Below the pieces are notes generated by a model, which did no database searches, was not told the origin of the DNA, and worked only from the letters and a program-made list of their open reading frames with translations. The position numbers and the translations under genes were made by a program. From a virus: a stretch of DNA of 34,482 nt. Of this stretch, positions 1-32,503 are shown piece by piece (the first letter of the stretch is position 1; each line of letters begins with the position of its first letter). Location of the stretch: IMG/VR virus record IMGVR_UViG_3300048835_000554, positions 1 through 34,482 of that record. One strand, 5' to 3'.

Positions 1-723
1 GGCGTCCTGGTAGCGCACCCACATGTACTCCCACCCCTTCTTATTGATCCCGCCGATGTCGCCGACCTGCAGACCGCTGACGTTGGGGCTGCCGGCGAAG
101 CGGAAGGTGATCTCCCAATCGTCGTCGGCGCTGGTGCCGCGGCGCGAGCCTGAGGCACCCAGGAACAAGCACTCGCCGGGCTGCAGGCCCCGGAACGCGC
201 CGCTGTTGACCTTGCCGGTGAGGTAGAACAGCGTTCCCCGGTAGGACGGGGTGACGACGGAAGCGGGCAGGTAGTGCGTCTCGGAGAACTGGTAGACGGG
301 GATGGTGATGTCCACGCCCTCGACGTTGTCGTGGGTCACGCCGATCGCGCCGCCGAAATCGGGCGCGTTGTTGGGATAGCGCCCGATGGTCTGGAGGCTC
401 TGGGTGATGTGCTGAGTCCCGCCGCCGGTGTCGAAGGCGAAGGAGGATTCGCCGGGTTCGGACTGCTGGTTCTCGGCCTTGCCGTAGCGGACGACGCCTT
501 CCCACATGTCCGGTCCCAACGGCTCGATCTGCAAGGTCTGGCGCACCAGGCCGCCGTACAACGTGGGTGTCGCGGCCGCCAAGGAACTCTTGGCGACGAT
601 GTCATCATCGGTGCCGGAGACGATGTATGCCCGCTCGACTTGAGAGGGCAATACTCCCACATCGGGGTCCTGCTCCGAAGTGGATTGGCGGCTCTCGAAC
701 TTTTCCAGCACGGTCACGGGCAT
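1..723 (-). CDS. Phage protein downstream of tape measure, probably distal tail (partial)
   Basis: The reading frame starts with ATG at 723 and stays open for 241 codons to the left edge, so the C-terminus is missing. A GGAGG Shine-Dalgarno lies 10 nt upstream; a second ATG at 730 is in another frame that gives an unconvincing protein. The start is 21 nt after the stop of the tape measure gene, the place where siphophages encode distal tail or baseplate proteins. The protein has no signal peptide or membrane segment. It is rich in G, T, S and aromatic residues with alternating hydrophobic positions, suggesting beta structure as in tail-tip or fibre proteins. I do not recognise a named family, so the tail role rests on gene order alone. 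Confidence 0.75.
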   Translation of the reverse strand, partial: MPVTVLEKFESRQSTSEQDPDVGVLPSQVERAYIVSGTDDDIVAKSSLAAATPTLYGGLVRQTLQIEPLGPDMWEGVVRYGKAENQQSEPGESSFAFDTGGGTQHITQSLQTIGRYPNNAPDFGGAIGVTHDNVEGVDITIPVYQFSETHYLPASVVTPSYRGTLFYLTGKVNSGAFRGLQPGECLFLGASGSRRGTSADDDWEITFRFAGSPNVSGLQVGDIGGINKKGWEYMWVRYQDA

Positions 724-744
724 CGGTCATGCACCTCCGGGGGG

Positions 745-2742
745 TCAATCGAATGTCGCTTCATCGGCGTCCTGCTTATTCAGGAGCTTCTTGGTGTTCT
801 TGGCGGTCTCCTCGGTGGCCTTGGCGATGCGGTCGGCGACGGGACCGCCTGCCAGCCCGCGCGCCTCCATCGCATTGAAAGTGCCGGCCACGCCGATCGT
901 CTTCTGCTTGGCTTGCTCAATGGTCGGCCCCAGCCCCTCGAGGTAGTCGCCGATGTCCGGCGGCGCTTTGAGGCGCTGCGGCCCCTCGGCATTCTTCATC
1001 TGCCGCTTCTTCCTGGCCTCCCCGATGGCGTCCTTCCACTCTTTCTTCGCGGCGTCGAGTTCTGCTTGGGCGGCGTCGATCTTCTTTTGCGCTTCGGCGT
1101 CGAGCTGGTTCTCTGCGTCAATGGACGCCTGGCCGATGCGGGCCAGGTTCTGCTCGTGTTCCTGCTGCAACTGCTTGAGTGCCTCGTCGCGCTCCCCGGC
1201 GATCTGCTGGACGTTCTGGTCCTTCTCCTTGTTGCGCTGGCCAATGCGCTGCTGTGCGTCTTCGTCCAGCCCCTTCTTCACCGCGTCGGTGTCGAGCGTG
1301 TCGTCCACCAGGCCCCACAGGTCCACGATCCGCTTGGCGACCCAGTTGACCGCGCCGTCCCAGACGTTCATCACCCCGGTGGACAGGCGCTCCCACACGT
1401 CCAGCACGCCGTAGTAGAGCTTGAGCATGACCTCGGCGACGGAGGCCACGCCGATCTCCCAGGCCGCCTGCACGCCGTACCACATGCCGTAGACGATCTT
1501 CATGGCCCCGGACTTGAGCCCCTCCCACAGGCGGGTGAGTTCCAGCACGCCTTTCTGCCAGAGGACCTTGAGCGACAGCCAGAGGATCTTGGCGGCCAGG
1601 GCGATGTCGCCGGCCATGAGGGCGTCAGAGATGCCTTGGAACGATTCGGAGGCGAAGTCGGAAAGGTCGGCGAAGCGGTCCCCCAGCCACGAAAGGGCCT
1701 GACCGCCCGCGCCGGACACATATATAAGGTATGCGCCCAGCGCCGCGATGGCGGCGACAGCCAGGCCGATGGGCGAGACCAGCCAGGCAATGATCGAGCC
1801 CAGCACGCCCACGGCCGTGCCTACGCCGGCGATGATGCCCGCCAGCGCGCCCATAACAGTTCCAATCGTCGTAATCGCGTAGCCCAGCGCCATCAGCGCC
1901 AGCCCGCCAGCGAGAATCCCGGCGGCTACCTTGAAGATGGTCACCACCAGGTCCTTGTTCTGCTTGATCCACGCCGTGGTGGTGACGACGGTGTTGATGA
2001 TCCATTCGCAGACGCTCTTGAGCGTGGGGGCGAGCGCCGAGCCGATGATGAAGACCCCTTGCTTGAGCACCTTCCAGAGCGTGTCGAAGGTGTCGTTGAG
2101 CGCTTCGGCGGCCTTGGCGTCCTCGGTGGACATGGTCAGGCCCAGGTCGCGGGCCTGCTGCTGCAGCGCCTCGATCCCCTTGGCCCCGTCGGCCATCAGC
2201 GGCAGAAGCTGCGTGCCGGACTTGCCGAAGAGTTCCATCGCCAGCGCCGCCCGCAACGCCGGGCTCTTGATCTGCGACAGGCGGTCGGCGATGAGCTTGA
2301 ACTGCTGGTCCGGGGAGAGACCGCGCAGGTCTTCCACCGTCAGCCCCAGCTTGGCCAGGGCGTCGGTGGCACTTTCCGACCCCTCGGCCGCCGCGACGAT
2401 GGCCTTCTGCATCTTCCGCAGCGAACCTTCGAGGATTTCCAGATTCGCGCCGGAGAGGTCGGCGGCGTAGGCCAGTTCCGAAAGCGTCTCGACGGAGACG
2501 CCCGTGCGCGCCGACGCCTTAGCGATCCGGTCGCCCATCTCGCTGAAAGCTTTGGCGCTGCCGACCAGTGGCGCGGTGACGGCCGCGCCAATGGCCGTCA
2601 TCTTCTGGCCCCAGCCGGTGATGGCGTCGCCGAAGGCCTTGAGCTTCTTGCTCGCCTTCTCCAGGCCGCGCACCAGCTTCGAGTCGCTCACGAACAACTC
2701 GACGTAGGCCGCCCCGGCCCGGATGCCGCGTGCGTTGGCCAT
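745..2742 (-). CDS. Tail tape measure protein
   Basis: This 665-residue protein sets tail length and is threaded through the tail tube. Residues 1-230 resemble the TP901-type tape measure N-terminus, with a run of AKAFSEMGDRIAKAS-like helices and an ATxxxLGL-like repeat region. Residues 270-343 form a long glycine/alanine-rich hydrophobic stretch with several possible membrane segments, typical of these proteins and thought to help DNA pass the host membrane. Residues about 490-600 are a charged Q/E/K/A coiled coil. It starts 3 nt after the stop of the upstream membrane protein, suggesting translational coupling, and it is the longest tail gene, as expected. Length is moderate, implying a fairly short tail. 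Confidence 0.93.
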   Translation of the reverse strand: MANARGIRAGAAYVELFVSDSKLVRGLEKASKKLKAFGDAITGWGQKMTAIGAAVTAPLVGSAKAFSEMGDRIAKASARTGVSVETLSELAYAADLSGANLEILEGSLRKMQKAIVAAAEGSESATDALAKLGLTVEDLRGLSPDQQFKLIADRLSQIKSPALRAALAMELFGKSGTQLLPLMADGAKGIEALQQQARDLGLTMSTEDAKAAEALNDTFDTLWKVLKQGVFIIGSALAPTLKSVCEWIINTVVTTTAWIKQNKDLVVTIFKVAAGILAGGLALMALGYAITTIGTVMGALAGIIAGVGTAVGVLGSIIAWLVSPIGLAVAAIAALGAYLIYVSGAGGQALSWLGDRFADLSDFASESFQGISDALMAGDIALAAKILWLSLKVLWQKGVLELTRLWEGLKSGAMKIVYGMWYGVQAAWEIGVASVAEVMLKLYYGVLDVWERLSTGVMNVWDGAVNWVAKRIVDLWGLVDDTLDTDAVKKGLDEDAQQRIGQRNKEKDQNVQQIAGERDEALKQLQQEHEQNLARIGQASIDAENQLDAEAQKKIDAAQAELDAAKKEWKDAIGEARKKRQMKNAEGPQRLKAPPDIGDYLEGLGPTIEQAKQKTIGVAGTFNAMEARGLAGGPVADRIAKATEETAKNTKKLLNKQDADEATFD

Positions 2743-14437: not shown

Positions 14438-14548
14438 AGTTTCACCATCCTAACATATTGAAAATAAGCGACTTATGATCGAATTGCGCTTGATGTCCCC
14501 GCGAACGCATGGCACTGTGTGCATGTTCAAACGCAAAGGAGAAACACG
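14438..14548 (+). promoter_or_regulatory. Divergent promoter/operator region
   Basis: This 111-bp gap separates the leftward structural operon from the rightward small-gene cassette and is the most AT-rich spot nearby. It holds the dyad ATAAG-CGA-CTTAT at about 14464-14476, and TTGAAA at 14459 that could be a rightward -35. No convincing paired -10 is visible for either strand, so a non-standard sigma factor may be used. The dyad would suit a repressor or activator controlling both directions. Confidence 0.5.
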
Positions 14549-14788
14549 ATGAAGAACGACGCCAGAACCAACGCCCGCGACGCCTATCAGACCCGCGCCA
14601 ACGACATCGCCCGCCTGATCGATGTCCTTCAGATGGAACTCGACAAGCACGCCACGGCCGCGAAGGCGGACGCGAAGTGCTGGGGCAAGGTCGGCGACCT
14701 CGGAAAGGTCCGCAGCGACCTGATCGATCTGGTCGGCTTCATGAGCGGGATGGACCGCGAGGCCATCGAAGGCTTCCTCGCCGAGTAA
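14549..14788 (+). CDS. Small helical protein, first gene of rightward cassette
   Basis: ATG 14549 follows AAAGGAGAAACACG, a strong ribosome site; an upstream ATG at 14525 has none. The 79-residue protein is charged and helical: ARDAYQTRANDIARLIDVLQMELDKH, then KVGDLGKVRSDLIDLVGFMSG and an acidic end DREAIEGFLAE. It resembles small early phage proteins of unknown function. It is the first of six genes read rightward. Confidence 0.8.
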   Translation: MKNDARTNARDAYQTRANDIARLIDVLQMELDKHATAAKADAKCWGKVGDLGKVRSDLIDLVGFMSGMDREAIEGFLAE

Positions 14789-14821
14789 CGCCCCGGACCC
14801 CGAACCGAAAGGACGACGACC

Positions 14822-15091
14822 ATGCGTACCACGCGAATCGAACTTGACGGAGATGCCGGGCACGTCGCCATCGCGCGCAAGGCCGGCGAGACAACCATCC
14901 GCATCGACAGCATCATCCGCGACCCCAAGCGCGGGCAGCAGGCATGGAAGACGTGGGAACTGCCCGCCCGGATCAGCGACGAGGACCTGTTCAAGGTCGC
15001 CATCGAGGTGCAATTCCGTTGCGACGGATGCACCGGCACCAACAGCATGATCCACGATTACTACCGCGAGATGCAGCGGTTTCAGGACTGA
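14822..15091 (+). CDS. Small protein with CxxC
   Basis: The 89-residue protein starts at ATG 14822, after GAAAGGACG. It has an N-terminal beta-like half (TTRIELDGDAGHVAIARKAGETTIRI) and a CDGC pair at residues 67-70 that could hold a metal or form a disulfide. The C-terminus is helical (SMIHDYYREMQRFQD). Unrecognised; second gene of the rightward cassette. Confidence 0.78.
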   Translation: MRTTRIELDGDAGHVAIARKAGETTIRIDSIIRDPKRGQQAWKTWELPARISDEDLFKVAIEVQFRCDGCTGTNSMIHDYYREMQRFQD

Positions 15092-15103
15092 ACGGAGGAC
15101 GCC

Positions 15104-15388
15104 ATGACCACGAAGCACGACCTCTTCACGCAGATCGCCCGCCGGCACCTGGGCATCGAGACGCTCGAGCAGCGCAACCGCGATAGCCTCGACTTTCACG
15201 ATGTCGGAGTGATCGGGGTGCAGCGGGCGCTCGACGCCGCCTACCGCGCCGGGCAGGCCGAACTCCTTGCCGCCGCCGAGGCGCTGCTGGCCGCGAAGGA
15301 CAACCAGATGGAGACAGCGGACGAGTGGCGACGCCTGCGGCGGGCCATACGCCACGCCAAGAAGCAGAACGCACTCCCGAAGCCCTGA
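15104..15388 (+). CDS. DUF6900-like small protein
   Basis: The 94-residue protein has the segment HLGIETLEQRNRDSLDFHDVGVIGVQRALDAAYRAG (residues 15-50), which I recognise as similar to the DUF6900 domain found in conjugative and phage accessory regions. The rest is an alanine-rich helix and a basic tail. CGGAGGACGCC precedes the ATG at 15104. Its stop codon lies in the loop of a 9-bp hairpin. Function unknown. Confidence 0.8.
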   Translation: MTTKHDLFTQIARRHLGIETLEQRNRDSLDFHDVGVIGVQRALDAAYRAGQAELLAAAEALLAAKDNQMETADEWRRLRRAIRHAKKQNALPKP

Positions 15389-15401
15389 AAAAGGGCTTCG
15401 G
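15377..15401 (+). terminator. Hairpin over stop codon, possible attenuator
   Basis: CCGAAGCCC (15377-15385) pairs perfectly with GGGCTTCGG (15393-15401), with a 7-nt loop TGAAAAA that contains the stop codon of the preceding gene. The following bases (TGGTTTCTGG) are not a clean U-tract, so this is more likely a weak terminator or mRNA-stability element that lowers expression of downstream genes than a full stop. Confidence 0.5.
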
Positions 15402-15421
15402 TGGTTTCTGGAGATCCCACC

Positions 15422-15730
15422 ATGACCAAGAACACGATCAGCAGGTTGGGTATCGGAAAGCGGACGGGGCGGAACATCCCGCCGAACACCGTGGTGAGGC
15501 AGGCCTGCGACCGCTGCGGCCGGGTTCTCGGCCACTTCGCCTCCGCGCACGACGGCACGCCCGAAGGCATGGTCGCCGCAGCGAAGCGGGCATCCGACGA
15601 GATGTTCCTCGCCTTCGACGAGGTGTCGAACATCAACAGCGCGATCCTCGCCACAGACGAAACCGGTGCGCCGCGGTGGACCATCTCGCCCAACTTCCGG
15701 GTCATCGAAGAGGTCGGCCCGGTCAGATGA
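15422..15730 (+). CDS. Small protein with CxxC zinc-like knuckle
   Basis: ATG 15422 is preferred over an upstream ATG because GGAGATCCCACC precedes it. The 102-residue protein has a basic N-terminus, C29-DR-C32 followed by H38, then helices (DGTPEGMVAAAKRASDEMFLAFDEV). One CxxC pair is insufficient for a full zinc finger by itself, but a dimer could complete it. The fourth gene of the rightward cassette; no family recognised. Confidence 0.75.
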   Translation: MTKNTISRLGIGKRTGRNIPPNTVVRQACDRCGRVLGHFASAHDGTPEGMVAAAKRASDEMFLAFDEVSNINSAILATDETGAPRWTISPNFRVIEEVGPVR

Positions 15731-15829
15731 AACGCTATCGACGGGGCATGTCGCCCCACGGGACCCCGCCCCCAGAAGACGCGGGACACGGGCTTGGCCA
15801 GCCCCAACACGGCCAAAGGAGACACGGTT

Positions 15830-16396
15830 ATGAAGAAGGACCAGATCAAGCTCGGCGGAACCTATCTCGCCAAGGTCACCGACAAGGTGGTGCCCGTCCG
15901 CCTCGACGCGGAGAACCGGCACGGCGGGTGGGACGCGACCAACCTCGTCACCAACAAGAAGGTCCGCATCAAGAGCGCCCAGCGCCTGCGCGGGCCGGCC
16001 CCGGACCGCGAGGCAAAACAGCGGGCCAAAGCCGTCGCCGAGGCGCAGGCGACGGACGTCGCCAACGCCGATGCGATCAACCCCGACGTGGTGCCGCTCT
16101 CCGAAGCGATGAAAACGACCAAGGCAGCCAAGGCGAAGAAGACGCCGGCGGAACCGAAGGAGAAGAAGACCAGCGGACTGGACGCCGCCTACGACGTGCT
16201 CAGGGCCAAAGGCGAGCCGATGACCTGCAAGGCCATCGTGGAGGAGATGCTCGCCAAGGGCATGTGGACGACCAACGGCAAGACGCCCGCCGCGACCATC
16301 TACAGCGCCATGCTCCGCGAGATCGACGCCAAGCCCGGCGAGAGCCGCTTCGCCAAGACCGCGCGGGGCCTCTTCACCGCCAACACCGGGAAGTGA
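15830..16396 (+). CDS. HARE-HTH domain protein
   Basis: ATG 15830 follows AAAGGAGACACGGTT. The 188-residue protein has a small N-terminal beta domain (KLGGTYLAKVTDKVVPVRL, KKVRIKSAQRL), a lysine/alanine-rich linker (residues about 60-112) and a C-terminal HARE-HTH winged-helix (residues about 115-188) with LDAAYDVLRAKGEPMTCKAIV, EEMLAKGMW and TPAATIYSAMLREI. HARE-HTH domains occur in chromatin proteins and bacterial restriction and DNA-repair systems. It could bind phage DNA or RNA polymerase as a regulator. Confidence 0.88.
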   Translation: MKKDQIKLGGTYLAKVTDKVVPVRLDAENRHGGWDATNLVTNKKVRIKSAQRLRGPAPDREAKQRAKAVAEAQATDVANADAINPDVVPLSEAMKTTKAAKAKKTPAEPKEKKTSGLDAAYDVLRAKGEPMTCKAIVEEMLAKGMWTTNGKTPAATIYSAMLREIDAKPGESRFAKTARGLFTANTGK

Positions 16397-16405
16397 GGTC
16401 ACGCC

Positions 16406-16762
16406 ATGCGCCGCAGCATCAGAGACCGCGACATCACCTTCCGCCACGAGGACGGGTGTCTCGTCCGCACGGTAGCGGGCGCGGACGGGCGCACCTACAC
16501 CCACCGCTGCTCGCTGGATGTGTTCGAGAAGGTCGCCTGGGTTCTGGAGGAAACGCCCGCCGAAGGTAATGGCATCGCCATCGGCCAGATCGCCAGCACC
16601 GAACACCTCCCGCACACCCAGGTGGACGTCACGCTGGCGTTCCTCCACGAGCGCGGAATCATCGACCGCCGGCACCGGCGGAACTATCCGGCCAGCCCCA
16701 GCGTCCATCTCGACGCGATGGTCGAGTGGCACGCACTCCGCGAAGAACCCAGACCCGCCTGA
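16406..16762 (+). CDS. Winged-helix-like protein, last gene of rightward cassette
   Basis: The 118-residue protein starts at ATG 16406, 9 nt after the previous stop, with GAGG upstream. Residues 1-35 form a small beta region (DITFRHEDGCLVRTVAGADG). The rest suggests a winged helix: CSLDVFEKVAWVLEE, IAIGQIASTEHLPHTQVDVTLAFLHERGIIDRRHRRNY, where the helix before ERGII would be the recognition helix. It ends just before a rho-independent terminator and is convergent with the cytosine methyltransferase gene. Probably a DNA-binding regulator. Confidence 0.8.
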   Translation: MRRSIRDRDITFRHEDGCLVRTVAGADGRTYTHRCSLDVFEKVAWVLEETPAEGNGIAIGQIASTEHLPHTQVDVTLAFLHERGIIDRRHRRNYPASPSVHLDAMVEWHALREEPRPA

Positions 16763-16764
16763 AA

Positions 16765-17433
16765 TCATCTCACCACCTCCGCTTCTCCCACCCCGGCCCC
16801 CGCAACAGCGGCCGGGGTTTCTCCGGTGTGAGCCGCAAGCCCACCCGGCCGATTCGCCTCGAACGCCGCCCGTGCGAACCCCATCGGCGTCTCACTGCGC
16901 AGGTTGCCGCGCTCCGGCGACGGCGGCATGCGATGGATGATGTTGCCGAGCACCGGCTCGACCCGGCGCTTGGGCGGCATGATGAACCCGCCGCCTGTCC
17001 ACAGGCATGTTTTCTTCGTCCAAGGATCGCCGTAATCACAGGGGTCGAACGTGTGGTCGGGTCGACGGAAGTGGCTGGCGATCACGGACACGGGGTTCTC
17101 GACCATCCACGGCGCACCGGTCCACTGGCATCGCTGCACGCACGCGCCGAAGATGTCGATGGCCTCCGACAGCGCCCTCAGCCCCTTGCCCCGGAACCAC
17201 CGTGCCCCGGAGACGGCCAGATGCGTGCAGGGCGGAAAGGCGAAGGCGATGACGTAGTCCCGCCTCGGCGGCAGCCAGTCGCGCACGTCCGCCCCGACGC
17301 GGACCAGCTGGCCGTCACGGTGCTCTCCCGGCTCATGACGCGTGTCCACTATCCAGCACTCATAGCCCGCCTCCAACCAGGGGCGGACCATGTTGCCGGT
17401 GTAGTCGCAGAGACTCAGCACGATCCGGTCCAT
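16765..17433 (-). CDS. Dcm-like DNA cytosine methyltransferase
   Basis: ATG 17433 overlaps the upstream methyltransferase stop as TGATG with GGAGG upstream. The 222-residue protein keeps cytosine-5 methyltransferase hallmarks: FPPC at 66-69 (catalytic Cys in motif IV), then HLAVSG, and VENP at 111-114 in place of the motif VI ENV. SLCDYTGNMVRPWLEAGY replaces the usual FAGxGG SAM motif. It is short and lacks an obvious target recognition domain, as in a subgroup of phage and environmental Dcm-like proteins whose activity is not always shown. The last 40 residues are A/G-rich and overlap the terminator of the facing operon. Likely modifies phage DNA; specificity unknown. Confidence 0.82.
   Translation of the reverse strand: MDRIVLSLCDYTGNMVRPWLEAGYECWIVDTRHEPGEHRDGQLVRVGADVRDWLPPRRDYVIAFAFPPCTHLAVSGARWFRGKGLRALSEAIDIFGACVQRCQWTGAPWMVENPVSVIASHFRRPDHTFDPCDYGDPWTKKTCLWTGGGFIMPPKRRVEPVLGNIIHRMPPSPERGNLRSETPMGFARAAFEANRPGGLAAHTGETPAAVAGAGVGEAEVVR
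16790..16820 (+). terminator. Intrinsic terminator of rightward cassette
   Basis: CCCCGGCC (16791-16798) pairs with GGCCGGGG (16810-16817) around an 11-nt loop and is followed by TTTCTCC; A16790 can pair with T16818. It lies 28 nt after the stop of the last rightward gene and inside the 3' end of the opposing methyltransferase gene. Confidence 0.65.
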
Positions 17434-23994: not shown

Positions 23995-24450
23995 TCAGTT
24001 CCGCGCCCACGGCGGCGTGTTCGTGGTCGCCTGCTGCGGCTGCGCGGTCGCGGCTTCCTTCTTCGCGTAGCCCTTGATCTCGTTGGTCATCTCGCCGGTG
24101 TCGTCGCGCTTCTTGAGGCGGACGCTGATCTGCAGCGGCAGGTTGTGCAGGTCCTGGCTGTCGCGCGGCGTCATCACGCCCACGGCGCGGCACACCGCCG
24201 ACAACTCGCTCTTGGCGATCTTGACTGTCGTGGCGTTGGGGTTGTCCAGGTTGAGACGTGCCCACAGCACGCGGCCCTTGAACGGGCCGTCGAGCACCTG
24301 GAAGGTCAGTTCCAGGTAGTTGCCCACGCCGCTCTTGGTCGGCTTCATCTCCGACGCCGTGATGACGGCGAGATACTTGCCGGCGGGGATGGGCTCGAAC
24401 GCGCTGGCGGGATCGACTTCGTTGGCGTTGAAACCGTTCAGGTTAGCCAT
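23995..24450 (-). CDS. DUF669 single-stranded DNA-binding protein
   Basis: Start ATG 24450 is set by GGAGAACAG upstream; longer frames are shadows. The 151-residue protein shows the DUF669 pattern: F-EPIPAGKYLAVITASEMKPTKSGVGNYLELTFQVLDGPFKGRVLW, then TVKIAKSELSAVCRAVGV and a Q/T-rich acidic end (residues 130-151) ending PPWARN, which could bind partner proteins. DUF669 proteins substitute for SSB in phage replication and recombination. The start overlaps the ATPase stop by 8 nt. Confidence 0.9.
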   Translation of the reverse strand: MANLNGFNANEVDPASAFEPIPAGKYLAVITASEMKPTKSGVGNYLELTFQVLDGPFKGRVLWARLNLDNPNATTVKIAKSELSAVCRAVGVMTPRDSQDLHNLPLQISVRLKKRDDTGEMTNEIKGYAKKEAATAQPQQATTNTPPWARN

Positions 24451-25222
24451 GATTCTGTTCTCCGTTGTTGCGGGGATTGCTGTTGGCGGCGGCCACGCAC
24501 CGCGCGTAGCTCGCATAGTCCAGGGGAATCTCGTCGGGCAGGTTCAGGCGGTTCTTGGCGACGTGCGCCGGGCGCTCGGTCGTGTAGATGACGCGCTGGC
24601 CGTCGCCGATGGCGCGGGTCTTCTTGCGGTTGAAGCCCTCGTCGCTCTGGCGGGTGTAGACCTTGTAGGTGGCGAAGAGGACCTCGTCGCACCACTCGGT
24701 CACCAGCGCCGACGCCAGCTTGTGGAGCCGGGGCGAATAGCGGTCGTAGGCCTCGGTCGCCGGGTCGTCGAACTTTTCGATCTTGCAGTGGGCGACCAGG
24801 AGGACCGCCATGTTGCGGTCACGCCGCAGCGCGTCGAGGCCGGCCAGCACGTCGCGCCAGTGGTTGAGCGCGAAGACGTAGCCCTTCTGGTAGCCGATGT
24901 CCTCGATGCTCTCGACCATCTTCCGCTTGCACACCTCGGTCCAGATGAGCCGTTCGAGCCAGTCGAGCGTGTCGATGACGACGGTGCGGAAGTCGTGCTT
25001 CTCGGTGTAGAGCGTCGCCAGCGACTTGATCACGTCGTCGAAGGTCGTGGCCAGCGGGAACTTGGCGCAGTCGATCTGCCCGAGGCCATCCTCGGTCTGA
25101 ATGAAGATCGGATTCTCCGCGTGGGCCGCGAATTGGCTCTTGCCGATGCCCGGCGTGCCGTACAGCGTCGCCCGCCGGGGCGCGGCCTGCCTGCCGCGAT
25201 GAATCTGTTCCATGAGCGTCAT
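24443..25222 (-). CDS. Sak4-like RecA-fold ATPase
   Basis: ATG 25222 is preferred, with AAAGGA 5 nt upstream. The 259-residue protein has Walker A GTPGIGKS at 22-29, Walker B TVVIDTLDW at about 80-88, and AVLLVAHCKIEKF around 145-157 as a sensor-like strand. This is the AAA_24 / Sak4 type of small RecA-like recombinase that anneals or exchanges strands with the help of a phage SSB. The SSB-like DUF669 gene follows directly, and a RecB-like nuclease precedes, giving a complete recombination set. Confidence 0.9.
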   Translation of the reverse strand: MTLMEQIHRGRQAAPRRATLYGTPGIGKSQFAAHAENPIFIQTEDGLGQIDCAKFPLATTFDDVIKSLATLYTEKHDFRTVVIDTLDWLERLIWTEVCKRKMVESIEDIGYQKGYVFALNHWRDVLAGLDALRRDRNMAVLLVAHCKIEKFDDPATEAYDRYSPRLHKLASALVTEWCDEVLFATYKVYTRQSDEGFNRKKTRAIGDGQRVIYTTERPAHVAKNRLNLPDEIPLDYASYARCVAAANSNPRNNGEQNHG

Positions 25223-25266
25223 GTGCGTCCTTTCCGTGTCAGGGGTTTTGGGTTTGCCGCCGGGAA

Positions 25267-26073
25267 TCACAGGTAGTCGATGGTCCGCAGTTCCTCGTAG
25301 CCGGTCGGCCACAGGTTGGCGGTGCGGCACCGGGTCAGGCGTTCCATCGCCTGCTCGTTCTCCTTCTGCGCCGCCGAGAGCACGTCGGGCGCGATGACGA
25401 ACACGCCGGTGCGGAACGGCTCGCGCTTCTCCACGGCGATGATGTGGACGGGGACGACCTTGCCGGTGATCTGGTGGATCAGGGCGCGGTAGAAACTCAT
25501 CTGGTGCAGGTAGCCGAAGCCCCGGGCCTCGCCCTCCAGCCAGGTCAGGTGGTCGCAGGTCTTGAAATCCACCAGCCCGCGGGCGGCGTTCACCCAGTCG
25601 ACTCGCCCCTGGCAGGCGATGCCGCGATAGGTCGTGCGAACGACGCCCTCGGCCACGCCGCTGGCGAGCAGTTCCATCGCCAACTTGTGCCCACGCACAG
25701 AGTCGAAGAGCTTCTCGATCACCGCGGCGTCGTCGGTGGGGATGACCGGCTTGCCCTGTGCCGTCGCCCAGTCCTCAAAGGCCTGGGTGTAACGCCCGTA
25801 GGGCTGGCCGGTCTTGGGGTTGATGGGGCCGCCGAAGGCGTGCTGCTGCTCGTAGCGCTGCCGGCCTTCCAGCACCAGCACGTGCGCCGCCCGGCCGAGG
25901 ATGAACGCCGGGCGATCATCCTCGACCACCAGGCCCAGTTTCTTCTTGTGGTACAGGTACGGGTCCCGGCGGAAGTCCGCCAGCTCGTGGGCCGTGAGAT
26001 GGTCCTTCGCCTGGCGGCGATACTCCTCGTCGGATTCGCGCACGAGAAACGACAGATCGTCCAGCACGTTCAT
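25267..26073 (-). CDS. PD-(D/E)XK exonuclease, RecB/RecE-like
   Basis: The 268-residue protein carries the nuclease core: H64 in FILGRAAHVLVLEG, D159 in GRVDW, the D169-F-K171 motif in LVDFKT, and QMSFYRALI near 191-199, as in phage RecE/Cas4-like exonucleases (DUF3799 group). It would resect DNA ends to feed the Sak4-like ATPase. ATG 26073 has AAAGGA 6 nt upstream; a GTG at 26118 with AAAGGA 9 nt upstream would add 15 residues and is possible. It follows the 26139-26184 hairpin element. Confidence 0.9.
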   Translation of the reverse strand: MNVLDDLSFLVRESDEEYRRQAKDHLTAHELADFRRDPYLYHKKKLGLVVEDDRPAFILGRAAHVLVLEGRQRYEQQHAFGGPINPKTGQPYGRYTQAFEDWATAQGKPVIPTDDAAVIEKLFDSVRGHKLAMELLASGVAEGVVRTTYRGIACQGRVDWVNAARGLVDFKTCDHLTWLEGEARGFGYLHQMSFYRALIHQITGKVVPVHIIAVEKREPFRTGVFVIAPDVLSAAQKENEQAMERLTRCRTANLWPTGYEELRTIDYL

Positions 26074-26138
26074 GCGGGTTCCTTTCCAAAGGTTGAAGGG
26101 ATTGAGTCGATTGAGCACGGTCGAGTGTCCTTTCGTGT

Positions 26139-26194: not shown

Positions 26195-26767
26195 TCAGAC
26201 GTAGAGGTGGAGCCTGGCCCCGAGGAAGATGTCGCGGAGCGCGGCGATGCGCTGGTAGATGATGGAGCGGGCCATCCCGGTCTCGCGCGAGATCTCGGTG
26301 GGCGTCTGTGACTGCAGCTTCACGCACAGATCACGCTGTTCCGGCGACAGCGCCGCCAGCACCTCCGCCGTGTCCATTTCCAGGCTGCGCCGCTCTTCGT
26401 CGCTGCGCCGCGTGACGCCGAGGTGGGCGCGCCCGCGGGCTTCGTCAATGGTGGTGTCGCGCCGTGCCCAGGCCCCGGTGTCGTCGTGGACCCAGTCGTC
26501 CAGCGACGACTCGATGCGGCCGTGACCCCGGCTGGCGGCATCGCGGCTCTGGAGCATGTTGGCGATCTTGTTGTCGATGATGCGACAGATGAACGTCTTC
26601 ACGCCCGCGCGGTCGCCGTTGAACTTCGGCAGCCGCCGCAGCACGTCCTCGATCAGGTCATGCTGCACGTCCTCGAGGTCGCCGAGGGCGGGACACCTCC
26701 GCACGACTTGCTTGGCCTTGTAGTGGGTGCGCTTGCTGATGTACTCGATCAGTTCCGTGGGATACAT
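26195..26767 (-). CDS. Sigma-70 family (ECF-like) RNA polymerase sigma factor
   Basis: The 190-residue protein has a region 2-like part (residues about 20-85: LGDLEDVQHDLIEDVLRRLPKFNG, then VKTFICRIIDNKIANMLQSRDA) and a region 4-like HTH (residues about 135-182: EVLAALSPEQRDLCVKLQSQTPTEISRETGMARSIIYQRIAALR). Size is that of ECF sigma factors. AGGAGATCGCGA precedes the ATG at 26767. It stands between the replication operon and the upstream regulatory genes, so it may redirect host polymerase to phage genes, possibly the late operon. Confidence 0.88.
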   Translation of the reverse strand: MYPTELIEYISKRTHYKAKQVVRRCPALGDLEDVQHDLIEDVLRRLPKFNGDRAGVKTFICRIIDNKIANMLQSRDAASRGHGRIESSLDDWVHDDTGAWARRDTTIDEARGRAHLGVTRRSDEERRSLEMDTAEVLAALSPEQRDLCVKLQSQTPTEISRETGMARSIIYQRIAALRDIFLGARLHLYV

Positions 26768-26934: not shown

Positions 26935-27261
26935 TTACGCTGCCTGGTGGTCGGTCTCGATGTCGATGGACGCGCCCGGGAGCCCGTGCGCGAACTTCAC
27001 GCGGACGCACTCGCCGTCGGGCAGCGTCTCGAGCGCCGCCAGGAGCGAGATCTGCTCCTTACGCAGTTCGAAGTCATCGCGCATGAGTTCGGGACGCGGA
27101 CCGTTGTCACCGCCGGCGATCCGCATCGTGCGAGACGTGTGGTGCGGGCGGCCGAGGTCCGGCTCGCCTTTGAGCGTGTAGAACGTGAGACTGCCGAAAT
27201 TGATCTGCTGGCCACGCTCGATCAGCCAGCGCTTCGGCTTGGAAAGATGCCGCTTGTCCAT
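26935..27261 (-). CDS. Small conserved phage protein with regulated start
   Basis: The 108-residue protein has a pattern I associate with small proteins of Planctomycetota phage-like regions: a RWLIERGQQINFGSLTFYTLKGEPDL start, then TMRIAGGDNGPRPELMRDDFELRKEQISLLAALETLP and VRVKFAHGLPG. Function unknown. The ATG at 27261 has AGGAG 8 nt upstream, but this site lies in a stem (27268-27323), so expression is probably controlled at translation. A strong terminator follows, making it a single-gene unit. Confidence 0.78.
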   Translation of the reverse strand: MDKRHLSKPKRWLIERGQQINFGSLTFYTLKGEPDLGRPHHTSRTMRIAGGDNGPRPELMRDDFELRKEQISLLAALETLPDGECVRVKFAHGLPGASIDIETDHQAA

Positions 27262-27323: not shown

Positions 27324-27372
27324 ATTGCACGAGAAATGAGCGCGTGCTTGCAGGACAAGTCTCAGCGCGCAT

Positions 27373-27435
27373 GCGACAGGTCTCCGCTGATATCCCGATG
27401 GAAACCAGCGGTTCGGAGGGCGATGGCGACAGGTC
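27373..27435. repeat. Direct repeats GCGACAGGTC
   Basis: The 10-mer GCGACAGGTC occurs exactly at 27373-27382 and 27426-27435, 53 bp apart (about five helical turns), with a third partial GACAGGT at about 27448. They lie in the 199-bp non-coding gap upstream of the 26935-27261 gene and may be operator sites. No convincing promoter pair is seen in the gap. Confidence 0.4.
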
Positions 27436-27460
27436 AAAGATTCTTCAGACAGGTTTGGCG

Positions 27461-28636
27461 TCAGCGTGGCTGGGAGGGACGAATTGCCACGCAGGTGGGG
27501 TTGATGCGATAGCCGCCGGACGTGTCGGCCTGGCCCTGCATCTTGCACGTCTGAACGATGTCTTCGCGGCCGATGGGGAGACCGAGCTTCTTCTTCACGG
27601 CGGTCTCGATGTCGTTCTGTAGGTTGTTGATCAGTTTGCGAAGCGAAGTCTCATCGCCATAGGAGTGGCCCGCGTCGGACATCGCCTTGAGCAACTTCTT
27701 CATGTTCATCGCGCCGAACGCGTCAACGGGCTTCTGCGCCAGCAAGTCAGCAATGAACTGCTTCCATAAGATTCCGAACAGCGCCAGTCGCGGGCCGGCT
27801 TGGGGATTGACGACGATCTCGCCGTTGACGCGCACGGTGCTTGCGTCGACTTCGACACAGAACAGGCGTTCGACGTGCGGGGCTTCCTCAGGCTGAACCA
27901 GAACATGGCCCTTGGCATACACCGGCACATCAACGGCCGCGACGTGCTGGGGAGGTCCGGCCGCAGCGCACTCCTCCAGCGCTTGGCGCAGGTCAACATT
28001 TCCGCAGACCAGGTCCAGAAGCCCGACGCGGCAAAGCCAGTCGTCCTTCACCAGGCGACCCACCGGCACATGCGGCGCGAGCACCACGTACAGGACCGGC
28101 GTGGAGGCCGCGACGGATCGCCGGTTGAGAGGCCCGTCGGCCAGCCCGTCCGCGTCGGCGACACAGACGCTCACGCCGCGTGGTCCGATTGCCGGGACAT
28201 GGAATGTGCCGTCGCCCGTATCCTTCGCGCCGGTGTCGATTTCCTTCAGCCGGGCATGGAGCCAGCGCAGCGCGCCTGGCCGCTGGAGGTGCGTCTGGAC
28301 CAATGGGTGTCGGTTCTTATGGTGTCGGGCGGGGTAGACGATTCGGCGGCAGCGCGGGCACTCGTAATCCTCGGCGTCCTCATCCTTGCCCGGATCGATG
28401 ACGATCTGGCCGTGGCAGGGCTGCCTGCCGCCGGAGAAATCGCGGTCGCGTGGATCGTGACATTTGACGTATTCGCCAAGGGAAAACGAGATCATGCCCA
28501 TCGACTGGAGCGCATCGGCCGTTGCCATCAATGCGCTGGCTGGGTTTTCGATGCGCGCACCGTCTTCGAGCAAAAGGCGCACATGATCGGGATCAAGCTG
28601 CCGCGCGCGTTTGGGTTGAGAGGATGGGGATGCCAT
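27461..28636 (-). CDS. Unknown zinc-binding protein of two-gene cargo operon
   Basis: The 391-residue protein is not recognised. Residues 58-97 contain a likely zinc site: CH at 59-60, CH at 74-75 and C93-PR-C96, so C59/C74/C93/C96 could chelate one metal. Residues about 150-240 have alternating strands and helices (SVCVADADGLADG, PVLYVVLAPHVPVGRLV). The C-terminal 90 residues look like a winged helix (MKKLLKAMSDAGHSYGDETSLRKLINNLQNDIETAVKKKLG). The first 44 nt overlap the upstream gene, so the two are co-translated. Base composition is less GC-rich than the phage modules. Possible sensor or regulator of a defence or exclusion system; inference only. Confidence 0.8.
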   Translation of the reverse strand: MASPSSQPKRARQLDPDHVRLLLEDGARIENPASALMATADALQSMGMISFSLGEYVKCHDPRDRDFSGGRQPCHGQIVIDPGKDEDAEDYECPRCRRIVYPARHHKNRHPLVQTHLQRPGALRWLHARLKEIDTGAKDTGDGTFHVPAIGPRGVSVCVADADGLADGPLNRRSVAASTPVLYVVLAPHVPVGRLVKDDWLCRVGLLDLVCGNVDLRQALEECAAAGPPQHVAAVDVPVYAKGHVLVQPEEAPHVERLFCVEVDASTVRVNGEIVVNPQAGPRLALFGILWKQFIADLLAQKPVDAFGAMNMKKLLKAMSDAGHSYGDETSLRKLINNLQNDIETAVKKKLGLPIGREDIVQTCKMQGQADTSGGYRINPTCVAIRPSQPR

Positions 28637-29834
28637 GCGTGTCCCTCATGAAATCTTCGAATTCCTTTCGCAGAGAAGCGTTCTTCAGACGCTGGTCCAC
28701 GTACCGCACGATAAACTCGTCCGCCACGCCGTGGGGGTCGAAGCGAAGCTCGACCCGCTTGTTCTTGTAGACGACCTCCATCTTGTGAATGCGGTCGATG
28801 TGTGCGGTCAGATCGCCGTGATCTCGCTCGATGCTGGCCACGGCGCGTCGAACAATGTCGGCGCTGGTATGGCACAGGTGCAGATCGACGCCGTCAACGG
28901 CCGAACTTGTCAAATCCAACTCCACGAGATCGAGTTCCTTGCAGTTGCCAGCCTTGAGCTGCTTGAGAAGGTTCTGAATCTGCTTGGCGTAGGTGATCTG
29001 GCATTCGTCGATGAACTCGACCTCCTTGCCGAAGTAGGCCGAGGCCAGGGCGTTGGCCATCGCCAGCGGGATGTCCCGACTGTCTGACGCTATGGCCACG
29101 CGCTGAGCATTCTCTGAGAAGTCCAGGATGATCCACTCGACACGATGGCCGTGCCGAATCTTGTCTCCCTGGATGATGTACTGCTCGCGCTCGGGCCGAC
29201 GAATGAAGACGAGATGATGGTGGTGATGCTGGACAATGTCCTTCAACTGGCTCGGACGGCGGTCGCGTTTCTTGCGGTCGCATGCCTCGATGACTTCCTT
29301 CCCCTTCTTCGTCGTCAGGAAGTCCACGAACTTCGTGTCGGGTTGCCGGACCTTCTGCTTCAGCACCATGCGGGCGAAACCGCGCTTATGAATCTTGTCG
29401 AGATGGAACAGCGTCTTGAGATGGTCCGGGCTGGCGTGGAAGAGCGCGTAGAGTAGGGCCTTCTTGTCGCAGGTGTCTTCGTCCTCGCTCAGACAGGTTT
29501 TGACGACGCGTTCCGCCAGTTTCGCGCGAGCAAGGTCCAGCGCCGCGAACTCGCCCTTCCCGTGCGCGAACTGGTCGATCAGATAGAAAGAAGCCAGTTG
29601 GCCGTTGCATTGCGCCAGCGCTGACCTCTGATCCTTGAGCCGGGTCGCATCGGTGATGCCCATCGCCAGGCAGAGGATGTCCGCCTGGCGTCCGGTGCGG
29701 GCATGCACCCACGCCTTCATCTGCTCCGGGTCTTGCACGCGAAGCAGCGAATCATCGATGTTAAGTTCAAGCTCGCTTTCCCAAAGGTCGCGGTTGACGG
29801 CCCCGGGGTTCCCATTGACAGACGCATCTGCCAT
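28593..29834 (-). CDS. Unknown 413-residue protein, first gene of two-gene cargo operon
   Basis: The protein is not recognised. Residues 1-195 are mainly helical (DILCLAMGITDATRLKDQ, LARAKLAERVVKTCLSEDED, KALLYALFHASPDHLKTLF). H203-H207 are five consecutive histidines, then LVFIRRPEREQYIIQGDKIRHGHRVEWIILDFSEN and SRDIPLAMANALASAYFGKEVEFIDE, an alternating strand/helix domain. The C-terminal third is charged, with VELDLTSSAVDGVDLHL and RVELRFDPHGVADEFI. No membrane segment, signal peptide or P-loop is visible. ATG 29834 has AAGGAC upstream, and a sigma70-like promoter lies 70 nt further up. Together with the zinc protein it forms a separate transcription unit between the regulatory and integration modules, a usual site for cargo genes. 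Confidence 0.82.
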   Translation of the reverse strand: MADASVNGNPGAVNRDLWESELELNIDDSLLRVQDPEQMKAWVHARTGRQADILCLAMGITDATRLKDQRSALAQCNGQLASFYLIDQFAHGKGEFAALDLARAKLAERVVKTCLSEDEDTCDKKALLYALFHASPDHLKTLFHLDKIHKRGFARMVLKQKVRQPDTKFVDFLTTKKGKEVIEACDRKKRDRRPSQLKDIVQHHHHHLVFIRRPEREQYIIQGDKIRHGHRVEWIILDFSENAQRVAIASDSRDIPLAMANALASAYFGKEVEFIDECQITYAKQIQNLLKQLKAGNCKELDLVELDLTSSAVDGVDLHLCHTSADIVRRAVASIERDHGDLTAHIDRIHKMEVVYKNKRVELRFDPHGVADEFIVRYVDQRLKNASLRKEFEDFMRDTHGIPILSTQTRAAA

Positions 29835-29873: not shown

Positions 29874-29918
29874 CTCCGTTAAGCCCGTTCAGTCCAGCAT
29901 CCCACTATTTTAACGGAG
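29874..29918. promoter_or_regulatory. Operator-like inverted repeat over -10
   Basis: CTCCGTTAA (29874-29882) and TTAACGGAG (29910-29918) form a perfect 9-bp inverted repeat with a 27-bp centre; the right arm covers the -10 box and part of the spacer. A further CCGTTCA at 29885-29891 may be a third half site. A repressor bound here would block the promoter; the HTH protein encoded next to it is one candidate. Confidence 0.55.
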
Positions 29919-29935
29919 CTCAGCATTGGCGGCAA
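29907..29935 (-). promoter_or_regulatory. Sigma70-type promoter of cargo operon
   Basis: On the minus strand TTGCCG (29935-29930) and TAAAAT (29912-29907) are separated by exactly 17 nt, making this the best sigma70-like promoter seen in the window. Expected transcription start is near 29900, giving a leader of about 65 nt before the ATG at 29834. Confidence 0.7.
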
Positions 29936-30019: not shown

Positions 30020-30421
30020 CTATGTTGTCAGTGACTTCCATAGTCGGCGCTGCTTCCGCCAATCCGGGACGGCCGCGATCCGGCGCATGTCGTGCTCGGT
30101 AACCGGGTGCCGACCGGCGATGGTTCGCGGCAGGAACAACAGTTCTTCCTGAATGTCGGGGGCCAGCAGCAGCATGTTCATAATCTGTGTCAGGCGGGCA
30201 CGGGTGACGCCGCCGAGGCGGGCCAGGTCGGCGTAGTCGCGGGCGACACCGTCCCGCAGCAAGCGTTCCAGCCGAATCGCCAGCGCCATGAGCCGCGACA
30301 CCCGGGGCACCGTGCCGGGTTCCACGAGCGTCTCTTGGGCGGGTGGGGCCGCGCCCTCCGTGAGTTGCTTCCGCGTCTTGCGGCCGACCTCGAAGTGGAC
30401 CTTGTACTCGGTTGTCAGCAT
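30020..30421 (-). CDS. HTH protein of recombinase cassette
   Basis: Two ATGs, at 30427 and 30421, are in frame. GGAG is 2-3 nt from the first and 8 nt from the second, so 30421 is chosen, giving 133 residues. Residues about 45-85 contain an HTH of the KorB/ParB type (LERLLRDGVARDYADLARLGGVTRARLTQIMNMLLLAPDIQEELLFLP), a domain that I know as the usual companion of this class of large serine recombinases. The C-terminus ends PDWRKQRRLW. It follows the recombinase (stop 30424) within one base. Likely a cassette regulator or DNA-binding partner. A dyad CTGACA/TGTCAG overlaps its stop. Confidence 0.88.
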   Translation of the reverse strand: MLTTEYKVHFEVGRKTRKQLTEGAAPPAQETLVEPGTVPRVSRLMALAIRLERLLRDGVARDYADLARLGGVTRARLTQIMNMLLLAPDIQEELLFLPRTIAGRHPVTEHDMRRIAAVPDWRKQRRLWKSLTT

Positions 30422-30423
30422 GG

Positions 30424-32001
30424 TCATTTCTCCGTGCGCCCGGCCGGGTATTCCTCGGCCAGCGCCTTGATGCCCGTGGGCCGGAAGGTGATCGCCAGCG
30501 TCCCGTCCGCCCCGTCATACGTCACCCGTTCCACGAGCAGGCGCAGCACCCGCCCTTGTTCCCCCGGCGCGAGCGAGTCCCAAACCGGGTCGAACATCGA
30601 CAGCGCCCGCGACAGTTCCTTCTCGTCCACCGTCTTCTCCCCAATCGCGATGATCTGCTCCCGCACCTCCGTCGCCCGCTGTTCGGCGGCGCGTATGCGT
30701 TCCTGAAGGTCCGCCAGCCGCGCCGCCGTAGGCGTCTCGCCCGGCTTCCCAGCCTGGTCGATCAACTTCCGCACCTCCGCGCCGTGTTGCGCCAGCTCGC
30801 GTTCCAGGCGGCGATGTTCGCCCTGGAGGGCTTCCAGCCCGGCCTGGTTCTGCTTCCGCGCCTGCGCCAACGTCGCGGCCAGAACCTTGTTGTCCTTGCC
30901 GATCGCCCGGATGCGGTCCACCACGAACCGCTCGATCTCGGCGGCGGGAACCGACTTGGTCGGGCAATCCTCCCAGCCCCGCTTCTGGGCGTTCATGCAG
31001 ACGTAGTAGCGATAGCGTCGGTTGGCCTTGGAGGTGTAGGTGTGCATCATCCCGCAGCCGCACGGCTTGCACTGAAGGATGCCCTTGAGCAGCGCGCCGT
31101 ACTTGTTCCGCGTCACCGCCGACCCGGTGCCGCCGTTGCGTCCGTTGTGCCGCAGCGCGTCCTGTACGCGGTGCCAGAGCGACTCGTTGACGATGCCCGC
31201 ATGCTCGGCGGGGTGGATTTCCTCGTGGTAGCGCACCTTGCCGATGTAGACCACGTTGGTCAGCAGGCGGTAGAGCGCTTCCTTCGTGTACCGCCGTCCG
31301 CCGCGCACCTGCCCCTTCTTCGTCGTCCATTGCTTGGCTCGCCAGCCACGCTTGTCCAGGTCGCGGATCGTCGGGATCAGCGAGCCGTGGTGCAGGTACA
31401 ACTCGAAGATCTGCCGGACCTGCTTGGCCTCTTCCTCTTTGACGGTGACGCGCCCGCCCTGCGGTGTCGAGGCCAGGTCGTATCCCAGCACCGGGTGCCC
31501 GCCGGCCCATTTCCCCTTCCTCCGCGCGGCCGCGATCTTGTCGCGGGTGCGCTCGGAGATGATCTCCCGCTCGAACTGGGCGAACGACAACAGCACGTTG
31601 AGCATCAAGCGGCCCATCGACGTGCTGGTATTGAACTGCTGCGTCACCGAGACGAAGGAGACGTGGTTGCGGTCCAGCACGTCCATGATCTTCGAGAAGT
31701 CGATCAGGCTGCGGCTCAGCCGGTCCACCTTGTAGACCACGATGCAGTCGATCTTCCCGGCGTCGATGTCGGCCAGGAGGCGCTGGAGCGCCGGGCGGTC
31801 CATGTTGCCGCCGGTGAACCCGCCGTCGTCGTAGCGCGTCGGCAGGCACGTCCACCCCTCGTGCTTCTGCGCTGCGATGTACGCCTCGCCGCTTTCACGC
31901 TGGGCGTCAAGCGAGTTGAACTCCTGCTCCAAGCCCTCCTCGGTGCTCTTGCGGGTGTAGACGGCGCACCGCAGCGTCTTCTTGTCGGCGTCCTTACCCA
32001 T
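30424..32001 (-). CDS. Large serine recombinase (integrase)
   Basis: The 525-residue protein has the resolvase catalytic domain (residues 8-150) with nucleophile S19 in YTRKST, VYKVDRLSRSLIDF and QFEREIISERTRDKI. A Recombinase domain (about 160-270, GYDLASTPQGG, YRLLTNVVYIGKVRY) follows, then a zinc ribbon (CKPCGCGMM ... YYVC ... WEDC) and a long coiled coil (about 370-455) typical of serine integrases. It would integrate and excise the element at an att site. The gene overlaps the DUF2924 gene by 8 nt. No duplicated att core was found within the window, so the second end is outside. Confidence 0.95.
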   Translation of the reverse strand: MGKDADKKTLRCAVYTRKSTEEGLEQEFNSLDAQRESGEAYIAAQKHEGWTCLPTRYDDGGFTGGNMDRPALQRLLADIDAGKIDCIVVYKVDRLSRSLIDFSKIMDVLDRNHVSFVSVTQQFNTSTSMGRLMLNVLLSFAQFEREIISERTRDKIAAARRKGKWAGGHPVLGYDLASTPQGGRVTVKEEEAKQVRQIFELYLHHGSLIPTIRDLDKRGWRAKQWTTKKGQVRGGRRYTKEALYRLLTNVVYIGKVRYHEEIHPAEHAGIVNESLWHRVQDALRHNGRNGGTGSAVTRNKYGALLKGILQCKPCGCGMMHTYTSKANRRYRYYVCMNAQKRGWEDCPTKSVPAAEIERFVVDRIRAIGKDNKVLAATLAQARKQNQAGLEALQGEHRRLERELAQHGAEVRKLIDQAGKPGETPTAARLADLQERIRAAEQRATEVREQIIAIGEKTVDEKELSRALSMFDPVWDSLAPGEQGRVLRLLVERVTYDGADGTLAITFRPTGIKALAEEYPAGRTEK

Positions 32002-32503
32002 GCGATTTCCTCCCGGCCCCGAGGCCGAAGAAATAGTTGCCGTTCCAATGCGAGCCGGTGATCGCCTTGGCGACCGCCGACAGGCTGCCGTACACCGCGC
32101 CGAGGTACTCGAACCCGTTGTCCAGCACGGTGACTTGGATCATCTGGCCCTTGTACTGGCGGGTGAGGATGGTGCCGGGCATCGGCTGGCCATCCCTTTC
32201 ACTGAAGGTAATCTTGGCCGTGCGGGTGGTGGATGCCGGCGAGGGCGCGGGCGGGTCCGGGGGCCGGCGCATCCGCAGGTCCGCGTCGTTGGCCAGTTCC
32301 TCGGCCCGCCGCCGGGCGCGCTCGGTCAGGTCGCCGTTGGCGTTGGCCTGCATCCGCCAGGCGATTCGTTTCCAAAGCCAGTCCTTGTTCCTGGATCGCG
32401 CGGCCTCGCCGAAGACCACCAGGTAGCGGCCCCGCAGTTCTTTGACGGTCATCTGCTTGAGGGCGGCGACCTCGCGGACGATGTTGGTTTTCGTTTCGAT
32501 CAT
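31994..32503 (-). CDS. DUF2924 family protein
   Basis: The 169-residue protein has the DUF2924 pattern: VAALKQMTVKELRGRYLVVFGEAARSRNKDWLWKRIAWRMQ, a P/A linker, then PGTILTRQYKGQMIQVTVLDNGFEYLGAVYGSLSAVAKAITGSHWNGNYFFGL. The second half resembles an inner part of homing-endonuclease-linked DNA-binding domains (related to the RAMA-like fold). It is found beside large serine recombinases and may help target or control recombination. AGAGGACACGAGC precedes the ATG at 32503. Confidence 0.93.
   Translation of the reverse strand: MIETKTNIVREVAALKQMTVKELRGRYLVVFGEAARSRNKDWLWKRIAWRMQANANGDLTERARRRAEELANDADLRMRRPPDPPAPSPASTTRTAKITFSERDGQPMPGTILTRQYKGQMIQVTVLDNGFEYLGAVYGSLSAVAKAITGSHWNGNYFFGLGAGRKSHG

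Follow-up and report, generated by a model that had tools for sequence, protein, structure and literature searches.

Locus and gene layout

Here, we study a two-gene element, P1-P2, of the virus record IMGVR_UViG_3300048835_000554 (34,482 bases; the whole stretch is called the window), the recognised genes of which lie nearly all on the minus strand. P1-P2 is inherited as a single unit whose movement is independent of the flanking genes, and it is a good candidate for a new Rex-like exclusion or switch module. A first-pass annotation had described an unrecognised operon of two overlapping genes between modules. Both open reading frames (ORFs) and their overlap are present as it had placed them:

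28593..29834, minus strand: P1, ORF of 413 amino acids (aa), phrog_21102
27461..28636, minus strand: P2, ORF of 391 aa, phrog_25990
28593..28636, minus strand: overlap of the P1 end with the P2 start, 44 nt, kept in relatives

Overlapping genes are the rule among relatives, i.e., P1 and P2 overlap in all but fragmentary loci. Matched (stoichiometric) production of the two proteins, as suggested before, would follow from this arrangement. The location between modules also held: the pair is flanked by the integration genes on one side and by sigma-like and recombination genes on the other. The flanking features are:

31994..32503, minus strand: DUF2924 protein, partner gene of the integrase (Pfam PF11149, E 1.6e-44)
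30424..32001, minus strand: large serine recombinase (LSR), the integrase (Pfam Resolvase/Recombinase/Zn_ribbon_recom; phrog_95 integrase)
30020..30427, minus strand: s135, small helix-turn-helix (HTH)-like protein after the integrase, at the upstream border of the slot (phrog_14161, E 4e-18; synteny)
26935..27261, minus strand: o108, 108-aa protein at the downstream border of the slot (kept in synteny; no family)
26195..26767, minus strand: sigma-factor-like protein (Sigma70_r2, E 4.5e-5; phrog_1740)
23995..26118, minus strand: recombination genes, i.e., DUF3799/exonuclease VIII-like, Sak4-like AAA_24 and DUF669/SSB (Pfam and PHROG matches)

On the minus strand, the gene order is thus DUF2924, LSR, s135, P1, P2, o108, sigma-like, exonuclease VIII-like DUF3799, Sak4-like AAA_24, DUF669/SSB, RusA, helicase, primase, ParB-methyltransferase, terminase, portal, capsid and tape measure. 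For DUF2924, no function was found in the literature.

Relatives and pairing

Both proteins show full-length matches to PHROG families of unknown function (P1 to phrog_21102, E 1.3e-67; P2 to phrog_25990, E 1.8e-42), and for both the only matches in records of named phages are in Wolbachia phage WO. The earlier statement that they belong to no known family therefore needs amending, since PHROG families and phage WO genes exist for both, while it stands in so far as all of these are function-less. Searches of Pfam, NCBIfam, PADLOC and PDB sequences gave no credible match for P1 or P2, and no family with a known non-defence role was found.

Relatives occur in viral contigs and in genomes of Phycisphaeraceae, Planctomycetales, Desulfobulbaceae, Magnetococcales and Acidobacteria, as well as in genomes of Nitrospirota, Gammaproteobacteria, Holospora, Wolbachia and others. 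They are mostly metagenomic, and several viral contigs represent the same phage in different samples, such that counts of loci (numbered with L in the following) are not counts of independent events. A search for the two genes as neighbours elsewhere found them together throughout: the two genes stay paired at almost all loci identified, which belong to prophages from at least eight lineages, and P2 directly follows P1 in all loci except L026, which ends inside P1, and L030, which holds a P1 remnant. At three loci, two from Holospora and one from Nitrospirota (L023, L027, L029), the P1 coding sequence is spread over more than one frame, for which decay or a sequencing error is possible.

The neighbours of P1-P2 are phage genes. 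Close relatives share the order DUF2924-LSR-s135-P1-P2-o108-sigma-exonuclease-Sak4-SSB, and more distant ones carry the LSR in the opposite orientation. In L011, a ParA-like ATPase gene (667-1731, minus strand) with a small companion gene lies between s135 and P1, which suggests a plasmid-like prophage. That P1-P2 is unrelated cargo found once is ruled out by its recurrence in many relatives, and that it is a strictly core gene set is ruled out by syntenic relatives that hold other modules instead.

The phage WO counterpart was characterised by tblastn. In wKue phage WO (AB036666), P1 matches gp10 (E 9e-47, 26.6% identity) and P2 matches gp9 (E 1e-24, 22.7% identity), with a coverage of 93-95% each; further matches of both proteins are found in HQ906663 and KY695239 (WOVitA2 and sr1WOdamA). 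As annotated, gp10 and gp9 overlap by 35 nt. The WO pair adjoins a large serine recombinase in WOVitA2 and sr1WOdamA, and the published cluster WO-PC1 (WOCauB3_gp2-gp3), called hypothetical proteins, likewise lies next to the recombinase (Bordenstein & Bordenstein 2022, PMC9203015). From this position we strongly infer that the WO homologues of P1-P2 are WO-PC1 (WOCauB3 gp2-gp3, AB478516). The WO genes, about 410 and 370-390 aa long, adjoin and overlap each other like their homologues P1 and P2; their sequences are much more diverged. Differences also concern the neighbourhood, i.e., in wKue phage WO and in the Wolbachia loci L024/L025/L042 the pair stands beside a methylase/ParB gene rather than the integrase, and recombination genes like those of the window were not found beside the WO pair. 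Kent et al. 2011 (PMC3173496) noted that, the integrase aside, no lysogeny module is recognised in phage WO. A function of WO-PC1 was not found in the literature.

Exchange of the pair as a block

We compared the window with its near-identical contig L034, relative to which one block is exchanged:

27357..29769, minus strand: exchanged block (83-97% nt identity to L034 outside, about 50% inside)

The nucleotide identity is about 94% upstream and over the first 65 nt of P1, and it is 83-95% again on the other side, from position 27357 onwards. In steps of 100 nt, it falls at the beginning of P1 from 95% to about 50% and recovers to 97% at 27327. This is also reflected in the protein identities: the flanking proteins are nearly the same (LSR 98%, s135 95%, o108 94%, Sak4 97%, helicase 98%), while P1 and P2 share only 39% and 30%, respectively. 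L005 and L012 show the same pattern (LSR 89, Sak4 88, P1 43, P2 35), with a block that extends further downstream. These two pairs of close relatives, with their clean breakpoints, are direct evidence of block exchange.

For 21 loci (210 pairs), the identities of P1 and P2 are strongly correlated (r=0.92). In comparison, the correlation of P1 identity with its flanks is 0.13 for Sak4, 0.11 for the helicase, 0.19 for s135 and 0.51 for the LSR, and the control pairs Sak4-helicase and LSR-s135 reach 0.90 and 0.78. All these values are descriptive because pairwise identities are not independent.

The lower GC content claimed for the pair is borne out: P1-P2 has 61.4% (P1 alone 59.3%) versus 65.3% for the window, which is the fourth lowest value among 161 same-sized overlapping windows. 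A 772-aa protein elsewhere in the window (14450-16768, minus strand), without Pfam or PHROG match, has a third-position GC of 0.63, well below that of other genes. Upstream of P1, we assessed two signals:

29907..29935, minus strand: promoter-like site TTGCCG-17-TAAAAT (9/12 matches; kept in L034)
29874..29918, strand not assigned: weak inverted repeat CTCCGTTAA/TTAACGGAG (not conserved)

The promoter-like site, annotated before as a strong sigma70 promoter, has 9/12 matches where 0.0 +/- 0.2 such sites are expected in shuffles; it is outside the exchanged block and unchanged between different alleles. Its promoter-like character is thus supported, while the attribute "strong" does not fit a -35 box with only 4/6 matches. 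The repeat had been called operator-like, which we reject: one as good as CTCCGTTAA/TTAACGGAG arises in 15/300 shuffles (about 5%), and one of its arms is altered in the nearest relative L034 although the upstream region is ~94% identical there.

Occupants of the slot and look-alike pairs

The slot of P1-P2 is bordered by s135 upstream and by o108 and the sigma-like gene downstream, and relatives with the same flanks hold alternative modules in it. These are QatC-like genes accompanied by a small partner (L089, L090; PADLOC QatC, 1e-52 and 1e-50), XRE with ImmA/IrrE (L094, L096, L167), single HTH proteins (L085, L092, L156) and an HTH gene together with an AbiEi/AbiEii pair (L097). An HNH nuclease gene precedes a look-alike pair in L101, and L104/L105 hold no module but 79 bp. 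Directly before P1-P2 itself, repressors are found that are LexA-like (L004, L014, L026) or of XRE+ImmA type (L006); all LexA, XRE and ImmA assignments are sequence motifs judged by eye. Because of the alternative occupants and the upstream repressors, we consider the slot an exchange place adjacent to lysogeny control where defence genes occur. The annotation as cargo or defence is hence supported with regard to an exchangeable slot (alternative modules, some of them defence; block exchange), while a defence role of P1-P2 itself is plausible only.

Two details of the slot are worth recording. The border gene o108 (26935-27261, minus strand of the window) encodes a small family-less protein and is kept there in many related phages. 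The AbiEii/AbiEi pair of L097 (8520-9923 and 9920-10783, minus strand) includes an AbiEii-like protein with an additional score for a WYL domain and an end that resembles a zinc finger.

In other relatives, the slot is filled by a look-alike pair, P1'-P2', of the same size and order, with 24 located copies (some from the same phage in different samples). It is found in:

Look-alike loci: L099-L103, L107, L120, L123, L135, L175-L182

P1' has about 400 aa and matches phrog_37634 in some cases. No sequence relation between P1' and P1 was detectable, i.e., their homology could not be shown at sequence level. For the second protein, the P2' that carry a zinc site resemble P2 residues 39-148 (hhalign score 34, P 0.0012; 13 unrelated profiles score 14-23), which, as one test among several, is suggestive of a kinship of P2' and P2 rather than proof of it.

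The C-terminal tails of the P2' proteins are HTH-like but of several types, which were judged partly by eye, and they differ from the C-terminal domain of P2. By phmmer (E<1e-6 for all), the tails of L107/L108 correspond to the QatC-like protein of L090, the tail of L175 to the one of L089, and the tails of L132 and L135 to the single HTH protein found in L092. That is, the QatC-like proteins (L089:4431-6230, L090:4730-6769) have C-terminal HTH-like tails that are also found on P2' of L175 and L107/L108, which we interpret as a defence-type enzyme with an exchangeable tail for DNA binding. Since the profile match stops early in L005, L007 and L020, the tail of P2 varies within its family, too; the C-terminal domain of these three proteins is unlike the winged helix of the other P2 proteins.

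Predicted folds

P1 consists of an N-terminal helical domain (about 15-150) and a mixed alpha/beta domain (about 154-400). Its AF2 monomer model (25 sequences in the alignment, pLDDT 86.8) finds E. coli RdgC first in a Foldseek search of the PDB (E 7e-5, prob 1.0), followed by the kinetochore proteins CENP-N/CENP-L (Chl4; prob 0.84-1.0, mostly 0.91-1.0). Among the matches to viral models (BFVD) are several RdgC-annotated phage proteins. We thus predict from the model an RdgC / CENP-N/L fold for P1. CENP-N also has an N-terminal helical domain. CENP-N/CENP-L (Chl4/Iml3) are eukaryotic kinetochore proteins, and their match with P1 is one of fold. The five consecutive His of P1, pointed out before, are a local quirk: relatives have NHHH, DGHH, QNQV or QNRL instead, and for this lack of conservation we reject a metal site there.

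P2 comprises an N-terminal helical/winged segment, a four-Cys site, a middle alpha/beta domain and a C-terminal winged helix (about 281-386). The site C59/C74/C93/C96 is invariant in 27 P2 homologues, which agrees with the earlier call; zinc itself is predicted. The winged-helix-like C-terminus is likewise supported by the AF2 monomer model (27 sequences in the alignment, pLDDT 83.9) and by Foldseek matches to ToxR/EmbR (prob 0.90-0.96, E 0.06-0.14), although none has an E below 0.001. An OmpR/ToxR-type Pfam match was not found for it.

Possible functions of P1-P2

We tentatively read P1-P2 as a Rex-like DNA-binding exclusion/switch module in which a soluble partner replaces RexB, with a probability that stays short of even. 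RdgC and RexA share a common fold, which has been established by crystal structures. Lambda RexA has the RdgC/IML3/CHL4 fold, binds double-stranded DNA (dsDNA) non-specifically as a dimer, contributes to the exclusion of phages and biases the decision between lysis and lysogeny (PMC11077077); Chl4/Iml3 resemble RdgC (PMC4080450). Like the RexA/RexB and RexAB-type systems (Sbash, CarolAnn, P. putida), P1-P2 is a pair of prophage genes located within or close to the immunity region, and the RdgC/CENP-N/L fold of their first protein is predicted for P1 as well. The repressors upstream of the pair in L004, L014, L026 and L006 are as expected near a lysogeny-control region. The constant pairing and co-divergence of P1 and P2, the Cys site and winged helix of P2, the block exchange, the alternative occupants of the slot (QatC-like, AbiE, XRE/ImmA) and the low GC also speak for this reading. 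An anti-phage role is plausible because lambda RexA excludes phages, and a RexAB-type system has recently been shown to defend P. putida (PMC12894663).

Given this reading, P1 would probably be a dimeric clamp around dsDNA without sequence specificity, and P2 would be made in step with it via the gene overlap. With its metal-stabilised ribbon and winged helix, P2 may provide a sequence-specific contact and perhaps self-regulation. The two proteins, presumably as a complex, would monitor or hold on to phage DNA at an early stage of infection or induction and determine what becomes of it. The output may be that a competing phage is excluded and/or that the switch of the resident phage is tipped, i.e., the two activities reported for RexA.

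Several observations weigh against such a Rex-like module. RexB is a small multi-pass membrane effector, whereas P2 appears soluble, with a four-Cys site and a winged helix, and has no membrane segment (best 19-residue hydropathy 1.42 versus 2.39 for lambda RexB). P1 has no net positive charge; its superposition with RdgC is partial (TM 0.28-0.41, root-mean-square deviation 7-11 A), and RexA is absent among the 50 Foldseek matches listed for it. Profile comparison (hhalign) of P1 with RexA (prob 0.5%) and with RdgC (prob 0.4%) shows no sequence relation, and Pfam RdgC (PF04381) has no match in 25 P1 homologues. P1 is thereby ruled out as a direct member of the RdgC or RexA family. On the other hand, RdgC and RexA likewise show no sequence relation to each other, so the profile test is not decisive on fold kinship. 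PADLOC-DB 2.0.0 gives no match at E<=1 for P1 or P2. Finally, the pair has long been retained in several phage lineages (Wolbachia WO, Holospora, Magnetococcales, planctomycete phages); it heads an early gene cluster and is kept in reduced endosymbiont phages, which fits a function of the phage's own equally well.

Such an own function could be that of an RdgC-like recombination/replication accessory, in which P1 rings dsDNA and modulates Sak4/SSB/exonuclease or replication restart while P2 loads P1 site-specifically. RdgC is the closest solved fold of P1 and phage RdgC entries are among the BFVD matches, the direct downstream neighbours are exonuclease, Sak4, SSB, RusA, helicase and primase, and retention in the reduced Wolbachia and Holospora phages would be explained. 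We nevertheless consider this unlikely: the divergence of P1-P2 is uncoupled from Sak4 (r 0.13) and helicase (r 0.11), WO-type phages keep the pair although the window's recombination genes were not detected nearby, and phages with the same recombination genes fill the slot with unrelated genes or leave it empty (79 bp in L104/L105). In contrast to RdgC, P1 has an extra N-terminal helical domain and the constant partner P2.

Similarly unlikely, in our view, is a mainly transcriptional or lysogeny regulator, with P2 binding an operator, P1 as DNA-clamping co-regulator and the slot being a regulator slot. In its favour, a winged helix forms the predicted C-terminus of P2, the slot is elsewhere occupied by XRE+ImmA pairs or by single HTH proteins, P2' has HTH-like ends of several kinds (two of them also on the slot's QatC-like proteins), no ORF of at least 45 codons lies between s135 and P1 in the window, and RexA biases the lambda switch (PMC11077077). 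LexA-like or XRE/ImmA repressors, however, stand beside P1-P2 in L004, L006, L014 and L026, so that the pair is not simply the repressor, and the promoter lies outside the exchanged block and does not change between alleles. A dedicated anti-phage cassette with a mechanism unrelated to Rex on an RdgC-like DNA-binding scaffold is improbable: QatC-like, AbiE and HNH genes as neighbours or alternatives in the slot, block-wise exchange and low GC would fit, but neither P1 nor P2 has a recognised domain of a toxic effector (nuclease, NTPase, membrane or other), and the pair was seen only next to phage genes and not in defence islands.

We thus keep the Rex-like exclusion/switch module as our tentative reading. 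Judged from sequence, the main output may be exclusion of other phages, control of the phage's own switch or help in recombination; RexA has the first two activities and RdgC the third. A wider and rather speculative idea, which we regard as doubtful, is that P1-P2 and P1'-P2' form one large and undescribed Rex-zone class, i.e., a clamp of RdgC/CENP-N/L fold plus a soluble adaptor with a freely exchanged C-terminal DNA-binding domain (even with the QatC-like proteins of the same slot), that would serve modular superinfection control from planctomycete phages to Wolbachia phage WO.

For phage WO, our results provide a first structural and mechanistic lead for WO-PC1, a conserved cluster published as functionless. 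They also add a predicted branch from prokaryotic viruses, with a partner unlike RexB, to the RdgC / RexA / CENP-N/L fold. Beyond the pair itself, the locus is an exchangeable phage slot with alternative control and defence modules that can be mined for new ones.

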